A stretch of DNA of 64,000 nt from Saccharomonospora glauca K62 (lineage in GTDB: Bacteria; Actinomycetota; Actinomycetes; Mycobacteriales; Pseudonocardiaceae): contig NZ_CM001484.1 in the NCBI RefSeq assembly GCF_000243395.2, positions 1,661,568 through 1,725,567 of the forward strand, in the 5' to 3' direction. Below the pieces are notes generated by a model. That model saw only the letters and a program-made list of their open reading frames with translations. It did not search any database and was not told where the DNA came from. A program made the translations under genes and the position numbers. Below are positions 4,819 through 51,302 of the stretch, piece after piece; position 1 is the first letter of the stretch; each line of letters starts with the position of its first letter.

Positions 4819-4997
4819 TACAAGAGAGCGATAACTGTGGGCGAGCGCAGAAGCGCACGAGGACGCCGCAGCCGGTCCTCGGTAGTGGCTGCCGGGGGCC
4901 TTCCCCGTCGGCTTCGATCGATGACCGGCCTCGTACCTCGCGCGCACCCCGAGGAGTGGGGAGGCGTCCGCCCGGATGTACGAGGAGTAACCAAGGA

Positions 4998-24663: not shown

Positions 24664-24738
24664 TGGTGCGCGATACTGGGATCGAACCAGTGACCTCTAC
24701 CGTGTCAAGGTAGCGCTCTCCCGCTGAGCTAATCGCGC
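24664..24738 (-). tRNA. tRNA-Val (anticodon GAC)
   Basis: Minus-strand cloverleaf with acceptor GCGCGAT/ATCGCGC, D-arm AGCTCAGCGGGAGAGC, anticodon stem CTACC/GGTAG with loop TTGACAC, and T-arm CTGGTTCGATCCCAG. CCA is encoded (24664-24666). It reads GUC/GUU codons. The tRNA-Cys 3' end is one base upstream, so both are processed from one precursor. Confidence 0.97.
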
Positions 24739-24739
24739 G

Positions 24740-24811
24740 AGGCGGAGACGGGAATCGAACCCGTGTACAGGGCTTTGCAGGCCCTTGCCTGAACCACTCG
24801 GCCACTCCGCC
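24740..24811 (-). tRNA. tRNA-Cys (anticodon GCA)
   Basis: Minus-strand cloverleaf with acceptor GGCGGAG/CTCCGCC, anticodon stem AGGGC/GCCCT around CTGCAAA, and T-arm CGGGTTCGATTCCCG. The discriminator base is U, the canonical identity element of tRNA-Cys. CCA is not encoded. It is the middle gene of the Gly-Cys-Val unit. Confidence 0.97.
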
Positions 24812-24865
24812 GTGTGTGTGGATCAAGCGCGAGCTCGATCCAACTGCGGAATGCCGCCGCAGTCG

Positions 24866-24938
24866 AGCGGACGACGGGACTCGAACCCGCGACCCTCACC
24901 TTGGCAAGGTGATGCGCTACCAACTGCGCTACGTCCGC
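24866..24938 (-). tRNA. tRNA-Gly (anticodon GCC)
   Basis: Minus-strand cloverleaf with acceptor GCGGACG/CGTCCGC, D-arm AGCGCAGTTGGTAGCGC, anticodon stem TCACC/GGTGA with loop TTGCCAA, and T-arm GCGGGTTCGAGTCCCGT. The discriminator is U and CCA is not encoded. First gene of the three-tRNA unit, reading GGC/GGU, the main glycine codons in this genome. Confidence 0.97.
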
Positions 24939-25002
24939 AATCTCCGACTCCGTGTCACTCGGCCTCTCGGTCGGTGACCCGTCGTCGTCGTGTGGAAAGA
25001 AC

Positions 25003-25032
25003 TTTATCCGATGCCCTTCCGGCCGTTTTCAC
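25003..25032 (-). promoter_or_regulatory. possible promoter of the tRNA-Gly-Cys-Val unit
   Basis: On the minus strand GTGAAA and GATAAA are separated by 18 bp, and the -10-like box lies about 65 bp before tRNA-Gly. It is the best -35/-10 pair upstream of the tRNAs, but it is not a strong consensus. Confidence 0.35.
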
Positions 25033-25065
25033 CGGGGGTGGTCATGTTCTCGCGCAAGCCTCTGA

Positions 25066-25491
25066 TCAGCCAAGATCATGCGGAATCAGCCTCGTGAGCG
25101 CGTCGTCGACGTCGACCCACAGGTGTTCGTTGCCGGGCAGCACGACGTCGTAGGTCTGGTCGAGGAAGTCGGCCAGCTCCTGGGCGGAGGCTTCGAACAT
25201 CGCGTGACCGGAAGGCGAGTTCAGTTCGACGAAGACGGAGTCGGGGTCCTCGATCGACGGCTTGATGCGCACGTCGCCGTCGCCCGCCTCGCCGAGCAGG
25301 CCGTCGGCCAGGAGGTCGCGGGCGAAGACCCACTCGACCCAACCGGCGCGTCCCGTGCGGAACGCCGCCACGACCGCGTACGGATCGCGGGTGTCGTACC
25401 GCAGTTCCACCTTCACCGGAACCGGAGGCGTTCGCGGCGCGAGAAGGTCGAAGACCGCCGTGGACCGGAGCGTGACGTGATCGTTTCGCAT
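25066..25491 (-). CDS. SsgB-like sporulation/cell-division regulator (SsgA family)
   Basis: A 141-residue SsgA-like protein. In Streptomyces, SsgB recruits FtsZ to future septum sites during sporulation. Members occur only in morphologically complex actinomycetes. Family features are visible: DPYAVVAAFRTGRAGWVEWVFARDLL, a GDGDVRIKP strand and LNSPSGHAMFEA. I chose ATG 25491, which has AAGGG 8 nt upstream, over an in-frame start 102 bp earlier that adds a non-conserved basic stretch. The gene lies between the tRNA-Val(GAC) unit and tRNA-Val(CAC). Calling it SsgB specifically rests on overall likeness. Confidence 0.85.
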   Translation of the reverse strand: MRNDHVTLRSTAVFDLLAPRTPPVPVKVELRYDTRDPYAVVAAFRTGRAGWVEWVFARDLLADGLLGEAGDGDVRIKPSIEDPDSVFVELNSPSGHAMFEASAQELADFLDQTYDVVLPGNEHLWVDVDDALTRLIPHDLG

Positions 25492-25782
25492 GTCGTTACC
25501 CTTCTGCTCCCTTCCGGCCGGCTTCGGCCGTGTCCTACGGGTGTGACGCACTCCGGCGCCGGCTCGATCACCTTGAGTCCGAACATCACCCAAACGTGTG
25601 CGTCGCGTGGGAGGCCCCGGTACATCCTGCTTGCTTGCCGGGGCGAAGGACAGACAAGTCGCGCGAATGTTGCAGCGGACACCCGGCGGGTGCCGGACCG
25701 CCGTGCGTCCTCGTTTCGGGCTCGCATCGACCTGTCACCAGTGGAAACGGCTCTCGGTGCTCCCGCCGCGATCCCGTTGCCG

Positions 25783-25809
25783 CCCCAAAAGGGGACCCCG
25801 CTTTCGGGG
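25783..25809. other. two adjacent short hairpins upstream of tRNA-Val(CAC)
   Basis: CCCC-AAAA-GGGG (25783-25794) is followed directly by CCCCG-CTTT-CGGGG (25796-25809). They lie 40 bp before the tRNA. They could form the end of an upstream transcript or be chance in GC-rich DNA. Confidence 0.35.
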
Positions 25810-25825
25810 CGCGATCAGCCTCCGC

Positions 25826-25831
25826 TACAGT
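25826..25831 (+). promoter_or_regulatory. -10 box for tRNA-Val(CAC)
   Basis: TACAGT is 18 bp before the first base of the mature tRNA, a sensible distance for a short 5' leader. No good -35 box is seen. Confidence 0.4.
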
Positions 25832-25849
25832 TGTTCCCACAACAGCACA

Positions 25850-25924
25850 GGGCGATTAGCTCAGCGGGAGAGCGCTTCGTTCACACCGAAGAGGTCACTG
25901 GTTCGATCCCAGTATCGCCCACCA
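25850..25924 (+). tRNA. tRNA-Val (anticodon CAC)
   Basis: Plus-strand cloverleaf with acceptor GGGCGAT/ATCGCCC, anticodon stem CTTCG/CGAAG around TTCACAC, T-arm CTGGTTCGATCCCAG, discriminator A, and encoded CCA (25922-25924). It reads GUG, a favoured valine codon here. Outside the anticodon arm and the acceptor ends it is nearly identical to the oppositely oriented tRNA-Val(GAC) 1.1 kb away. Confidence 0.97.
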
Positions 25925-49483: not shown

Positions 49484-50257
49484 ATGAACAAGGGGCTCGA
49501 ATTCCGCACCGACGCCGAGATCGCCAAGCTGACGTTCGCGCGGCCGGAGAAGATGAACGCCATCAGCCACGAGATGTGGTCGGCGATTCCCGACGTGGTC
49601 GCCGAGGTCGAGGCCGACCCGACCGTGAAGGTCCTCGTGGTGACCGGGACGGGTGGTCAGTTCTCGGCGGGGGCCGACATCGGCGAGTTTCGTACCCTAC
49701 GGTCCACCGCCGAGGGGGCGGCGGCCTACGACCGGGCGGTGACGGCGGCGGTGCGGGCGCTCACCACCATGCGCAAGCCGAGCATCGCGATGATCCACGG
49801 CAACTGCATCGGCGGTGGGTGTCAGCTCGCGGTGGCGTGCGACTTCCGGTTCGTGGCGACGGACGCGACGCTCGGTATCACGCCGGCCAAACTCGGCATC
49901 GTCTACGACTTCACGTCGACACGGCAGCTCGTCACGCTCGTCGGACCGGCCCACGCGCGGTACCTGTTGCTGTCGGCGCGGCTCGTGGACGCGCGGCGGG
50001 CCGCGGAAATGGGCCTGGTCAACGAGGTGTTCGACCCGGATGAGCTGGAGAAGACCACGATGGAGTTCGCGCGTACCCTCTGCGAGCGCTCCCAGGTGTC
50101 GATCCGGGGAATGAACGAGATCATCGAGCGCATTCTCGAAGGACAGCGGGAGTCCGATGCGGAGGTGGAACGCATCCGCAGCGAGGCCGTCCGCAGCGCC
50201 GACTACGCGGAGGGCGTCGCCGCCTTCCTGGAACGCCGCCCGCCCCGCTTCAACTGA
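49484..50257 (+). CDS. enoyl-CoA hydratase/isomerase family protein
   Basis: A 257-residue crotonase-fold protein. The oxyanion-hole elements are visible as FSAGADIGEF (about residue 65) and HGNCIGGGCQLAVACDFRF (about 105), with KLGIVYDFTSTRQLVTLVG where catalytic acids are usually placed. It ends normally. It probably acts on a CoA ester in fatty acid or branched-chain catabolism, with no neighbouring pathway genes to narrow it down. It stops three bases before the 21-bp repeat array. Confidence 0.85.
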   Translation: MNKGLEFRTDAEIAKLTFARPEKMNAISHEMWSAIPDVVAEVEADPTVKVLVVTGTGGQFSAGADIGEFRTLRSTAEGAAAYDRAVTAAVRALTTMRKPSIAMIHGNCIGGGCQLAVACDFRFVATDATLGITPAKLGIVYDFTSTRQLVTLVGPAHARYLLLSARLVDARRAAEMGLVNEVFDPDELEKTTMEFARTLCERSQVSIRGMNEIIERILEGQRESDAEVERIRSEAVRSADYAEGVAAFLERRPPRFN

Positions 50258-50259
50258 GC

Positions 50260-50413
50260 CGTGTCCGCAGCTTGTGCACGCGTGTCCGCAGTTCAGGTAC
50301 GCGTGTCCGCACCCGGTGCACACGTGTTCGCCTCCCACGCTGCGAACACCCGTACACAGGCTGCGGACACGCGTACGCCAGGTGCGGACACGCGTACGCC
50401 AGGTGCGGACACG
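50260..50413. repeat. mirror-symmetric array of eight 21-bp repeats
   Basis: Four direct copies of CGTGTCCGCA (last one CGTGTTCGC) begin at 50260, 50281, 50302 and 50323. Four inverted copies (TGCGAACAC, then TGCGGACACG three times) begin at 50341, 50362, 50383 and 50404. The pitch is exactly 21 bp in both halves, and every direct copy is equidistant from the centre at 50336.5 with one inverted copy. The 11-bp linkers vary but often end GTACG or GCACG. The array fills the gap between two convergent genes, so RNA from either side could fold into a long interrupted hairpin. Confidence 0.9.
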
Positions 50414-50420
50414 CCGGCGG

Positions 50421-51302
50421 TCAGGACTCGACGGTCACGTCGGTGAACTTCACCTCGGTGTTGGGCTTGCCGCCGCCGGGGGACGGGTCGAACCTGCCGT
50501 CGTGGCCCGCGCGAGCGACCTCGTCGAGTACCTCGAGCCCCTCGTCGTCGATGGTGCCGAACACCGTGTAGCTGGGCGGCAGCGGCGCGTCGCCGTAGAC
50601 CATGAAGAACTGGCTGCCGTTGGTGTCCGGGCCGCTGTTGGCCATCGCGAGGATGCCGCGACCGTAGGTGAGGGAGTCGAAGGTCTCGTCCGCGAACATG
50701 TAGCCGGGGCCGCCCATGCCCTCACCGGTCGGGTCGCCGCACTGGAGCATCTGGAGGCCCTCGGTGCCGATCCGGTGGCAACTCGTGTCGGTGTAGAAGC
50801 CTTCCTCCGCCAGGTGCACGAAGCTGTTGACCGTGCACGGGGCCAGCGACCTGTCGAGGTCGAGCCCGATGTCGCCGACGTTGGTGTGCAGCGTGACCTT
50901 CACGGTGCCCTCGGACGGGACGTTCTCGCCGTCGGGGAGGGAGACCTCCTTGGCGGGCTCGCCCGACTTCCGGTACTCGCACGACGTCGGGTTGGGCAGC
51001 GCCTCGGGACGGGAGGCGGGTTCGACGCGCTCGGTGGGGATCTCGATGTCTTCCGATCCGGAGGCCGAGTCCGACGCTCCGGGCGTCGCGTCCGACGAGC
51101 TGGCGGGATCGTCGATGCCCTCCGCCGCGCTGTCACCGCCCCGCGTGCCCAGGAACACGACGAGGCCCGCGACGGCCACCACGGCTCCCACCGTGACGGC
51201 GACTCCGACGATCCTGCGTCGCCTCTCCCGCTCGGCACGACGGGCGAGCTGTCGTTCCAGCTTGCGTTTCGCGGCCTCGCGGCGTTGCTGGTTGGTCGCC
51301 AC
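50421..51302 (-). CDS. membrane-anchored cyclophilin-type peptidyl-prolyl isomerase
   Basis: A 293-residue protein with a basic coiled N-terminus, one transmembrane segment at about residues 33-55, a Ser/Asp/Glu-rich linker, and a cyclophilin domain facing outside (SFVHLAEEGFYTDTSCHRI; GPGYMFADE; MANSGPDTNGSQFFMVYG). It resembles the mycobacterial Rv2582 (PpiB) found next to relA. It probably assists folding of exported proteins. The GTG start 51302 has GAGGAGG upstream and excludes a spurious long N-terminal extension. Its stop lies 8 bp from the repeat array. Confidence 0.9.
   Translation of the reverse strand: MATNQQRREAAKRKLERQLARRAERERRRRIVGVAVTVGAVVAVAGLVVFLGTRGGDSAAEGIDDPASSSDATPGASDSASGSEDIEIPTERVEPASRPEALPNPTSCEYRKSGEPAKEVSLPDGENVPSEGTVKVTLHTNVGDIGLDLDRSLAPCTVNSFVHLAEEGFYTDTSCHRIGTEGLQMLQCGDPTGEGMGGPGYMFADETFDSLTYGRGILAMANSGPDTNGSQFFMVYGDAPLPPSYTVFGTIDDEGLEVLDEVARAGHDGRFDPSPGGGKPNTEVKFTDVTVES

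Follow-up and report, generated by a model that had tools for sequence, protein, structure and literature searches.

What is a mirror-symmetric row of 21-bp repeats doing between two genes that run toward each other? In Saccharomonospora glauca K62, the gap that separates a crotonase gene from a cyclophilin gene (50258–50420 of the window, by which we mean the whole 64,000-nucleotide stretch of DNA analyzed) is entirely occupied by four plus-strand and four minus-strand units of this length. The features of the locus are as follows.

49484–50257, plus strand: crotonase (enoyl-CoA hydratase/isomerase) gene, an open reading frame matching Pfam ECH_1 (E = 1.7e-51), with the plus arm at its 3′ end
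50260–50280, plus strand: plus-arm unit 1, exact CGTGTCCGCA core, then an 11-bp linker
50281–50301, plus strand: plus-arm unit 2, exact core, then linker
50302–50322, plus strand: plus-arm unit 3, exact core, then linker
50323–50332, plus strand: plus-arm unit 4, core without linker, two mismatches
50333–50340, no strand: center between the arms, 8 bp; core start to core start is 18 bp, which fits a 10.5-bp lattice
50341–50350, minus strand: minus-arm unit 4, core without linker, two mismatches
50351–50371, minus strand: minus-arm unit 3, exact core at 50362–50371, plus linker
50372–50392, minus strand: minus-arm unit 2, exact core at 50383–50392, plus linker
50393–50413, minus strand: minus-arm unit 1, exact core at 50404–50413, plus linker
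50421–51302, minus strand: cyclophilin-type peptidyl-prolyl isomerase gene (Pfam Pro_isomerase, E = 1.4e-27), with the minus arm at its 3′ end

The preliminary description of this structure was accurate in its geometry. Every unit start was placed correctly (plus cores at 50260, 50281, 50302 and 50323; minus cores at 50341, 50362, 50383 and 50404), and both the 21-bp pitch and the mirror axis at 50336.5 were reproduced. Two minus units, 50362–50382 and 50383–50403, are the same over all 21 bp. The array does fill the space between the stops, since it starts 2 bp after the crotonase stop (TGA, 50255–50257) and leaves 7 bp before that of cyclophilin (TCA, 50421–50423).

Twenty-one base pairs equal seven codons and open frames span the array, but a coding role was rejected because the arms begin past the stop codons and vary freely. 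The gap holds no run of three T, so the combination of GC-rich hairpin and T tract that defines an intrinsic (Rho-independent) terminator is not present. Rfam gave no match above the gathering score at 50260–50413 and five elsewhere in the window; the Actino-pnp RNA and four tRNA genes at 4871–4929 and 24667–25921 are ordinary features. Single cores with at most one mismatch number 13 in the window against 15.6 expected, which is no excess over chance. What goes beyond chance is their tandem arrangement.

That arrangement is repeated throughout the genome (4,564,108 bases, two contigs). Two cores of the unit CGTGTCCGCA-N11 at 21-bp pitch, allowing up to three mismatches, match 129 times on the plus strand and 184 times on the minus strand (313 in all), against 2 and 0 for the reversed control. 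Since the unit is genome-wide and relatives keep arrays at this very gap, the structure is not the local chance expansion that had been considered at the outset. We mapped 97 arms forming 63 arrays in about 1 Mb in total, from stretches partly chosen for arrays and partly not; the unchosen part comprises the window and 35 stretches of 20 kb, or 764 kb. Two-armed arrays number 34, with the arms facing each other in all 34 and lengths of 111–259 bp (median 154), and the other 29 of the 63 have one arm only. Across 84 arms, the unit is oriented, with the consensus CGTGTCCGCA followed loosely by SNYYRYGYACG. Within the linker, positions 12 and 15 vary almost without restraint, and others retain no more than a class of base. 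Core positions 1–7 of the first unit show no variation in the 84 arms of at least three units, an invariance partly favored by finding the arms via their core; a C6-to-T change is common in third units (43%).

At about 1620–1660 of stretch L018 (near 616,200 of the genome), two tandem TTGTCCACA boxes directly adjoin a two-arm array, and TTGTCCACA is the actinobacterial DnaA-box consensus. The core itself resembles that consensus at TGTCC, but the idea of DnaA box clusters was dropped because the cores of other genera (CGTGTCAGCA, ACGCGAGTTACG and GCGAGTTGCCC) do not.

The arrays lie at gene ends. According to our own codon-score gene-calling script, which gave a coding density of 0.87 over the first 464 kb, 34 of the 63 arrays occupy convergent gaps, 24 co-directional gaps, and five gaps called divergent, with some error in these neighbor labels, including the five divergent calls. 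The earlier emphasis on convergent genes is right for this locus but too restrictive for the family, given the 24 co-directional arrays. In the 764 kb not chosen for arrays, and counting gaps of at least 60 bp, arrays occupy 5 of the 48 convergent gaps, 7 of the 222 co-directional gaps, and 1 of the 99 divergent gaps (convergent versus other long gaps, Fisher p = 0.017); the 295 shorter gaps carry none. Because only 5 of 48 long convergent gaps have one, the array cannot be a general terminator. Where arrays do occur, they sit close to stop codons. The nearest stop is at most 15 nt away for 32 of the 34 arrays in convergent gaps, and 12 of the 17 two-arm convergent arrays lie within that distance of both stops. 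In co-directional gaps, the upstream stop is at most 11 nt away for 19 of 24 arrays, with the next start 19–334 bp off. Direction relative to transcription follows no strict rule, since the one-armed arrays in co-directional gaps are split between five co-oriented and five opposed; on these numbers, we dropped the idea that every arm is strictly directed away from the gene it adjoins.

The genes in front of the arrays look functionally unrelated, with no common class seen in the 20 of 81 that were scanned. Their codon score is slightly above that of other convergent genes (p = 0.03). Genes beside arrays in divergent gaps offered nothing telling as a candidate binder. A GroEL-type chaperonin gene (Cpn60; L165, 5049–6677) is followed by a one-arm array 56 bp past its stop. 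By a simple scan, tailed hairpins look scarce at convergent gene ends (17 of 128); they were found at 9 of 60 ends with arrays versus 8 of 68 without, so that a role of the arrays as substitutes for tailed hairpins is unsupported within this genome.

Of 60 spacings of up to 90 bp between cores on the same strand, 58 are whole multiples of 21. The distance from the innermost plus core to the innermost minus core is 16–19 modulo 21 in 28 two-arm arrays and 6–8 modulo 21 in the other six, which accounts for all 34. When periods between 5 and 40 bp were compared, 10.5 bp fitted best (R = 0.915), against a maximum R of 0.49 in 3000 control sets whose distances were jittered by up to 10 bp. This quantization of arm distance at 10.5 bp in 34 of 34 arrays is the decisive evidence for a phased array. 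We rejected an alternative in which the six distances of 6–8 modulo 21 go back to one other founder. A random draw places six such distances in some three-residue window with p = 0.0005, and half-turn spacings recur elsewhere: in G001 (48 and 49), in G151 (90), and in the Amycolatopsis-type set (33).

The same register is found beyond S. glauca. In five other genomes of the genus, 12 pairs of facing arms gave R = 0.795 and the same phase (7.08 versus 7.13), with 11 in register and a single 13-bp pair in G001 as the exception. Arm distances at six loci of three other genera are 38, 39, 39, 39, 39, and 90 bp, where L225 contributes no inward pair and L211 repeats L203. Amycolatopsis-type arrays with a readable direction have inward distances of 28, 48, 49, 70, 71, and 111 and outward distances of 23, 33, 43, 44, and 44; for one of those kept, the 48 of L139, the pattern matches the right arm in the opposite direction as well. 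The eleven distances form two narrow phase classes, 6–8 and 1–2 modulo 10.5, but they use another anchor and so their absolute phase is not comparable with ours. Palindromic GTGT-type motifs, which match in both directions, were set aside from this set, and the gaps across their centers would be 47, 58, 60, 61, and 61 (phases 5.0–8.5). Outward-facing GAGT-type arms in 10.5-bp register occur in L273, L275, and L285–L287 (genus g16, of Amycolatopsis type), and G151 (L225) also has outward-facing arms.

A register held across unconserved spacers favors proteins bound along one side of the double helix. Whole-turn spacing is present both in the 21-bp pitch and in the 10.5-bp steps between arms. 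The suggestion that every core would look toward the same side of the helix is supported and extends to the facing arm. Of the three options first raised for the array (a terminator or RNase III hairpin, a protein-binding array, and a mobile repeat family), the second is the one that this register across differing spacers supports.

It is useful to contrast this with a reading at the level of RNA, in which facing arms fold into one long hairpin that terminates transcription, stabilizes the 3′ end, or serves as an RNase III substrate. Two-arm arrays do fold much more stably than shuffled sequence (mean z −9.1, n = 34), as inverted repeats inevitably will, and opposing third units are not below chance in likeness (5.83 versus 5.49 of 11). 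However, the partner arm is missing in 29 of 63 arrays, and single arms fold weakly on both strands (mean z −1.2 sense and −1.0 antisense, n = 84). The opposing linkers are less alike than expected by chance, with 0.595 versus 0.632 in the best register, a value undercut by 0.25% of shuffles. When arms were shuffled between arrays, about 2% of shuffles were lower for first units, and about as many for second units. It is as if near-perfect palindromes had been purged. Moreover, a 10.5-bp register is unexpected for RNA, and a period of 11.0 fits worse (R = 0.77). One-armed arrays and poorly matching linkers led us to abandon the long hairpin and also disfavor the RNase III proposal; we regard an RNA element of any of these kinds as very improbable. 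Stems within single units fared no better. Column-pair statistics over the 84 arms picked out mostly neighboring linker columns and no clear stem, and stems drawn by eye fail in relatives whose linkers end in TAGC rather than CACG. By eye, those same linkers also break the alternating purine–pyrimidine pattern that Z-DNA would call for.

Comparison with relatives separates core from linker. Fifteen orthologous gene ends, compared across five relatives, show a core identity of 94%, a figure favored by finding arms via the core, versus 60% for linkers and 54% for unrelated linkers (40 unit pairs); for one gene pair, in G002 and L047, the linkers are identical as well. Cores kept while spacers drift are the expected signature of a protein-site array, with the caveat that arms were detected by core. 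The claim that core and spacing look selected gains further weight from the invariance of positions 1–7. Linkers can also turn over as a species-wide change: in G006, G009, and G010, those listed mostly end in TAGC, TAGT, CAGC, or TCGC, not CACG. The proximity of arms to stops is less regular in some relatives, where fewer arms begin between −5 and 20 nt of a stop on their own strand (6 of 15 in G001, 3 of 8 in G006).

At this locus, the history of the neighboring genes is instructive. The cyclophilin gene is present in all 12 genomes of the genus, and G002, G001, and G008 keep facing arrays in the crotonase/cyclophilin gap, preceded by a hairpin in G001 and G008. In G006 and G011 (by gene calls) and in G009 and G010 (by eye), a further gene follows cyclophilin. 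In G011, five units form an array immediately past that further gene, and the crotonase end shows one exact core with degenerate neighbors, below the strength required by the arm finder. In S. piscinae (L062, the species of G006), crotonase retains a three-unit arm with other genes in between. Arrays thus appear to mark the ends of transcription units. G003, G004, G005, and G007 are without this core; three of them are 82–83% complete and two read N in the gap. The assemblies of S. iraqiensis and its subspecies paurometabolica (L066, L067, L239, and L240) have N behind cyclophilin, as if a repeat there could not be assembled.

These comparisons bear on another option, a family of selfish or mobile repeats (REP-, DUS-, or satellite-like) that colonizes gene ends and has no host function. 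Hundreds of copies and genus-specific sequence variants are what such a family would produce. Adjacent linkers, moreover, are identical in 11% of pairs versus 0.6% at random, which indicates local duplication, and the degenerate units at this locus in G008 and G011 include, at the G011 crotonase end, what may be decay. Against this, a two-unit weight matrix trained on the arms of the S. glauca genome and run on the 764 kb gave 49 matches above 14 bits, of which 47 exceed 25 bits, and none on the reversed sequence. This genome thus has no graveyard of decaying copies in the 764 kb. Of 129 orthologous gene ends, 118 match in having or lacking an array (it is in both genomes at 21, in neither at 97, in the relative only at 7, and in S. 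glauca only at 4), although both samples were partly chosen for arrays; nine array-bearing genes of relatives have their ortholog in the unchosen part of our genome, and an array is there in three. Cores outlive linkers, as described above. Finally, the Y1/RAYT transposase family (PF01797) occurs in G001, G005, G006, and G008 and is absent from the other 8 of 12 genus genomes, among them the array-bearing G000 (the S. glauca genome itself), G002, G009, G010, and G011. On this evidence, a mobile family is quite improbable.

The search of related Pseudonocardiaceae, with at most one mismatch, recovered the core pattern in 8 of 12 genomes of the genus; across the family it appeared in 16 of 249, of which three had one match each. 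A looser pattern matched 434 times in G168 (control 2), where 13 of 20 arms begin between −5 and 20 nt of a stop on their own strand, and 190 times in G020 (control 5). A shared sub-motif, ACGCGWGT, occurs at 21-bp pitch in 38 of the 249 family genomes, 24 of them with at least five matches and a maximum of 178. Its reversed control, TGWGCGCA, was mostly at 0 but reached 32 matches in G051 (genus g41), a genome without ACGCGWGT matches that possibly has another 21-bp repeat family. In a sample of 397 genomes of the order, the sub-motif was found in 24, with just three single matches among the 318 genomes outside the family. Altered cores at the unchanged pitch stand behind stop codons in other genera, as with CGTGTCAGCA, ACGCGAGTTACG, and GCGAGTTGCCC, and within the genus S. 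saliphila (L074) has 21-bp GCGAGTTGCCC arrays 3 and 5 nt from gene ends. Arrays lie 4–17 nt past a stop in Amycolatopsis L117, L128, L129, L130, L137, and L139 and 6 nt past one in A. taiwanensis L097; genus g16 is presumably Amycolatopsis, judging by the motif common to the named records. By eye, distant relatives can have an ordinary T-tailed hairpin in the same gap, as in Kutzneria L104. Prauserella and Haloechinothrix (L065, L069, L077, and L089) carry other repeat-like inverted sequences behind cyclophilin, for example GAGCGAATGCCGCATTCGCTCC in P. muralis L077, which are perhaps further gene-end families.

At the level of sequence, then, the family, its placement at gene ends, the conservation of its core, and its helical phasing are supported. 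We propose, with moderate confidence, that the feature is a site array for a putative sequence-specific DNA-binding protein, whose most likely action would be that of a roadblock or insulator at the ends of transcription units. The protein would bind the 10-bp core of each unit and leave the 11-bp linker loosely constrained. Because 21 bp are two helical turns, bound molecules would lie side by side on one DNA face in a fixed direction, and neighbors would probably touch each other at this spacing. As facing arms are in the same helical register whatever the spacer, both rows could form one nucleoprotein assembly. Such an assembly may halt RNA polymerase as it leaves the gene and so insulate the neighbor, above all a convergent one. 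The binder, its oligomerization, and the stop to transcription are what we infer from the arrangement, and stopping or buffering RNA polymerase appears to be the most economical role for it.

The same phased array could instead serve chromosome organization, as a nucleoid or segregation anchor or as a topological barrier tolerated at free gene ends. Phasing and core conservation fit this equally, and both the lack of strict polarity of co-directional arms (five versus five) and the presence of arrays at a minority of gene ends would be natural for it. Against it, 19 of 24 co-directional arrays lie within 11 nt of the upstream stop despite having 19–334 bp to the next start, arrays are all but absent from long divergent gaps (1 of 99), and the array of G011 sits at the end of an altered transcription unit. 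We consider this role unlikely, though far from negligible.

Another possibility is that the arrays are hard-wired sites for DNA gyrase, with two phased arms wrapping the enzyme downstream of transcription, in the manner of BIME elements in E. coli. The length wrapped by gyrase is near that of two-arm arrays, and the slightly higher codon score of array genes points the same way. In E. coli, the motif published for gyrase sites is an extended one whose G/C content varies in phase every 10 bp; the sites follow operons with high transcription and are enriched in BIME-2 (PMC6379681). A 10-bp phased G/C pattern, however, was not found in our arrays: in 317 units of the S. glauca genome, A+T hardly oscillates within the unit, with 4% of variance at 10.5 bp. 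Many arrays have one arm only (29 of 63), and cores that differ between genera would be odd for the target of a conserved enzyme. Gyrase sites are therefore improbable.

To place a protein-bound roadblock among known systems, several comparisons are informative. REP/BIME elements, linked to RAYT transposases, are described as high-copy intergenic repeats, mostly downstream of coding regions in convergent or co-directional gaps and often in facing pairs (PMC3733652); BIME-2 are reported to be cut by gyrase (PMC6379681). Our arrays share the copy number, the setting past genes, and the facing pairs, but they consist of a nonpalindromic, oriented core in tandem at 21 bp, with arm distances that are helically phased, and five array-bearing genomes have no Y1 transposase. 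The unit is not palindromic by its consensus or by the weak folding of single arms, and 8 of 12 genus genomes are without PF01797. The words Saccharomonospora, Amycolatopsis, and Actinobacteria are all absent from the main text of PMC3733652. Uptake-signal dyads of Pasteurellaceae, according to the sections of PMC5217627 available, act as terminators that pair as hairpins; they resemble the arrays as a genome-wide short motif, often in facing pairs at gene 3′ ends, but those sections describe no 21-bp tandem rows. Here, hairpin pairing is not the rule (29 of 63 arrays are one-armed and linkers are less alike than shuffles), although the cores on their own are able to pair. In molecular terms, the best match is BldC of actinomycetes, whose cooperative head-to-tail binding to oriented direct repeats of variable number is reported in PMC5859096. 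The elements described there are 9 bp with an AT-rich part and lie at promoters, whereas ours have GC-rich cores, 21-bp spacing, and a place at gene ends. The consulted parts of PMC6749651 and PMC12306157 contain nothing on these arrays. No published description was found in the open-access literature covered by the searches. In function, the nearest parallels are the Sal-box/TTF-I terminators of rRNA genes and the Tus–Ter fork traps, in which proteins bind directional sites past genes or halt a moving machine from one side; the polarity of the arrays here is not strict. We know of no protein-array terminator that serves many unrelated bacterial genes.

A broader form of the proposal is that, in many Pseudonocardiaceae, a dedicated protein polymerizes on phased, fast-diversifying 21-bp sites and thereby provides a hairpin-free, genome-wide roadblock terminator or insulator, similar to TTF-I and its Sal boxes, with a recognition code rewritten several times between genera. 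We advance this extension only tentatively, as a possibility about which we remain doubtful. Its implications would nonetheless be of several kinds. First, how transcription ends in high-GC actinomycetes is a question for which phased gene-end arrays supply a concrete, testable candidate. Second, the core, the pitch, and the register may constitute a parts kit for insulators in antibiotic producers. Finally, a core rewritten between genera on a fixed 21-bp architecture would be a natural experiment in which a DNA-binding protein co-evolves with hundreds of its sites.
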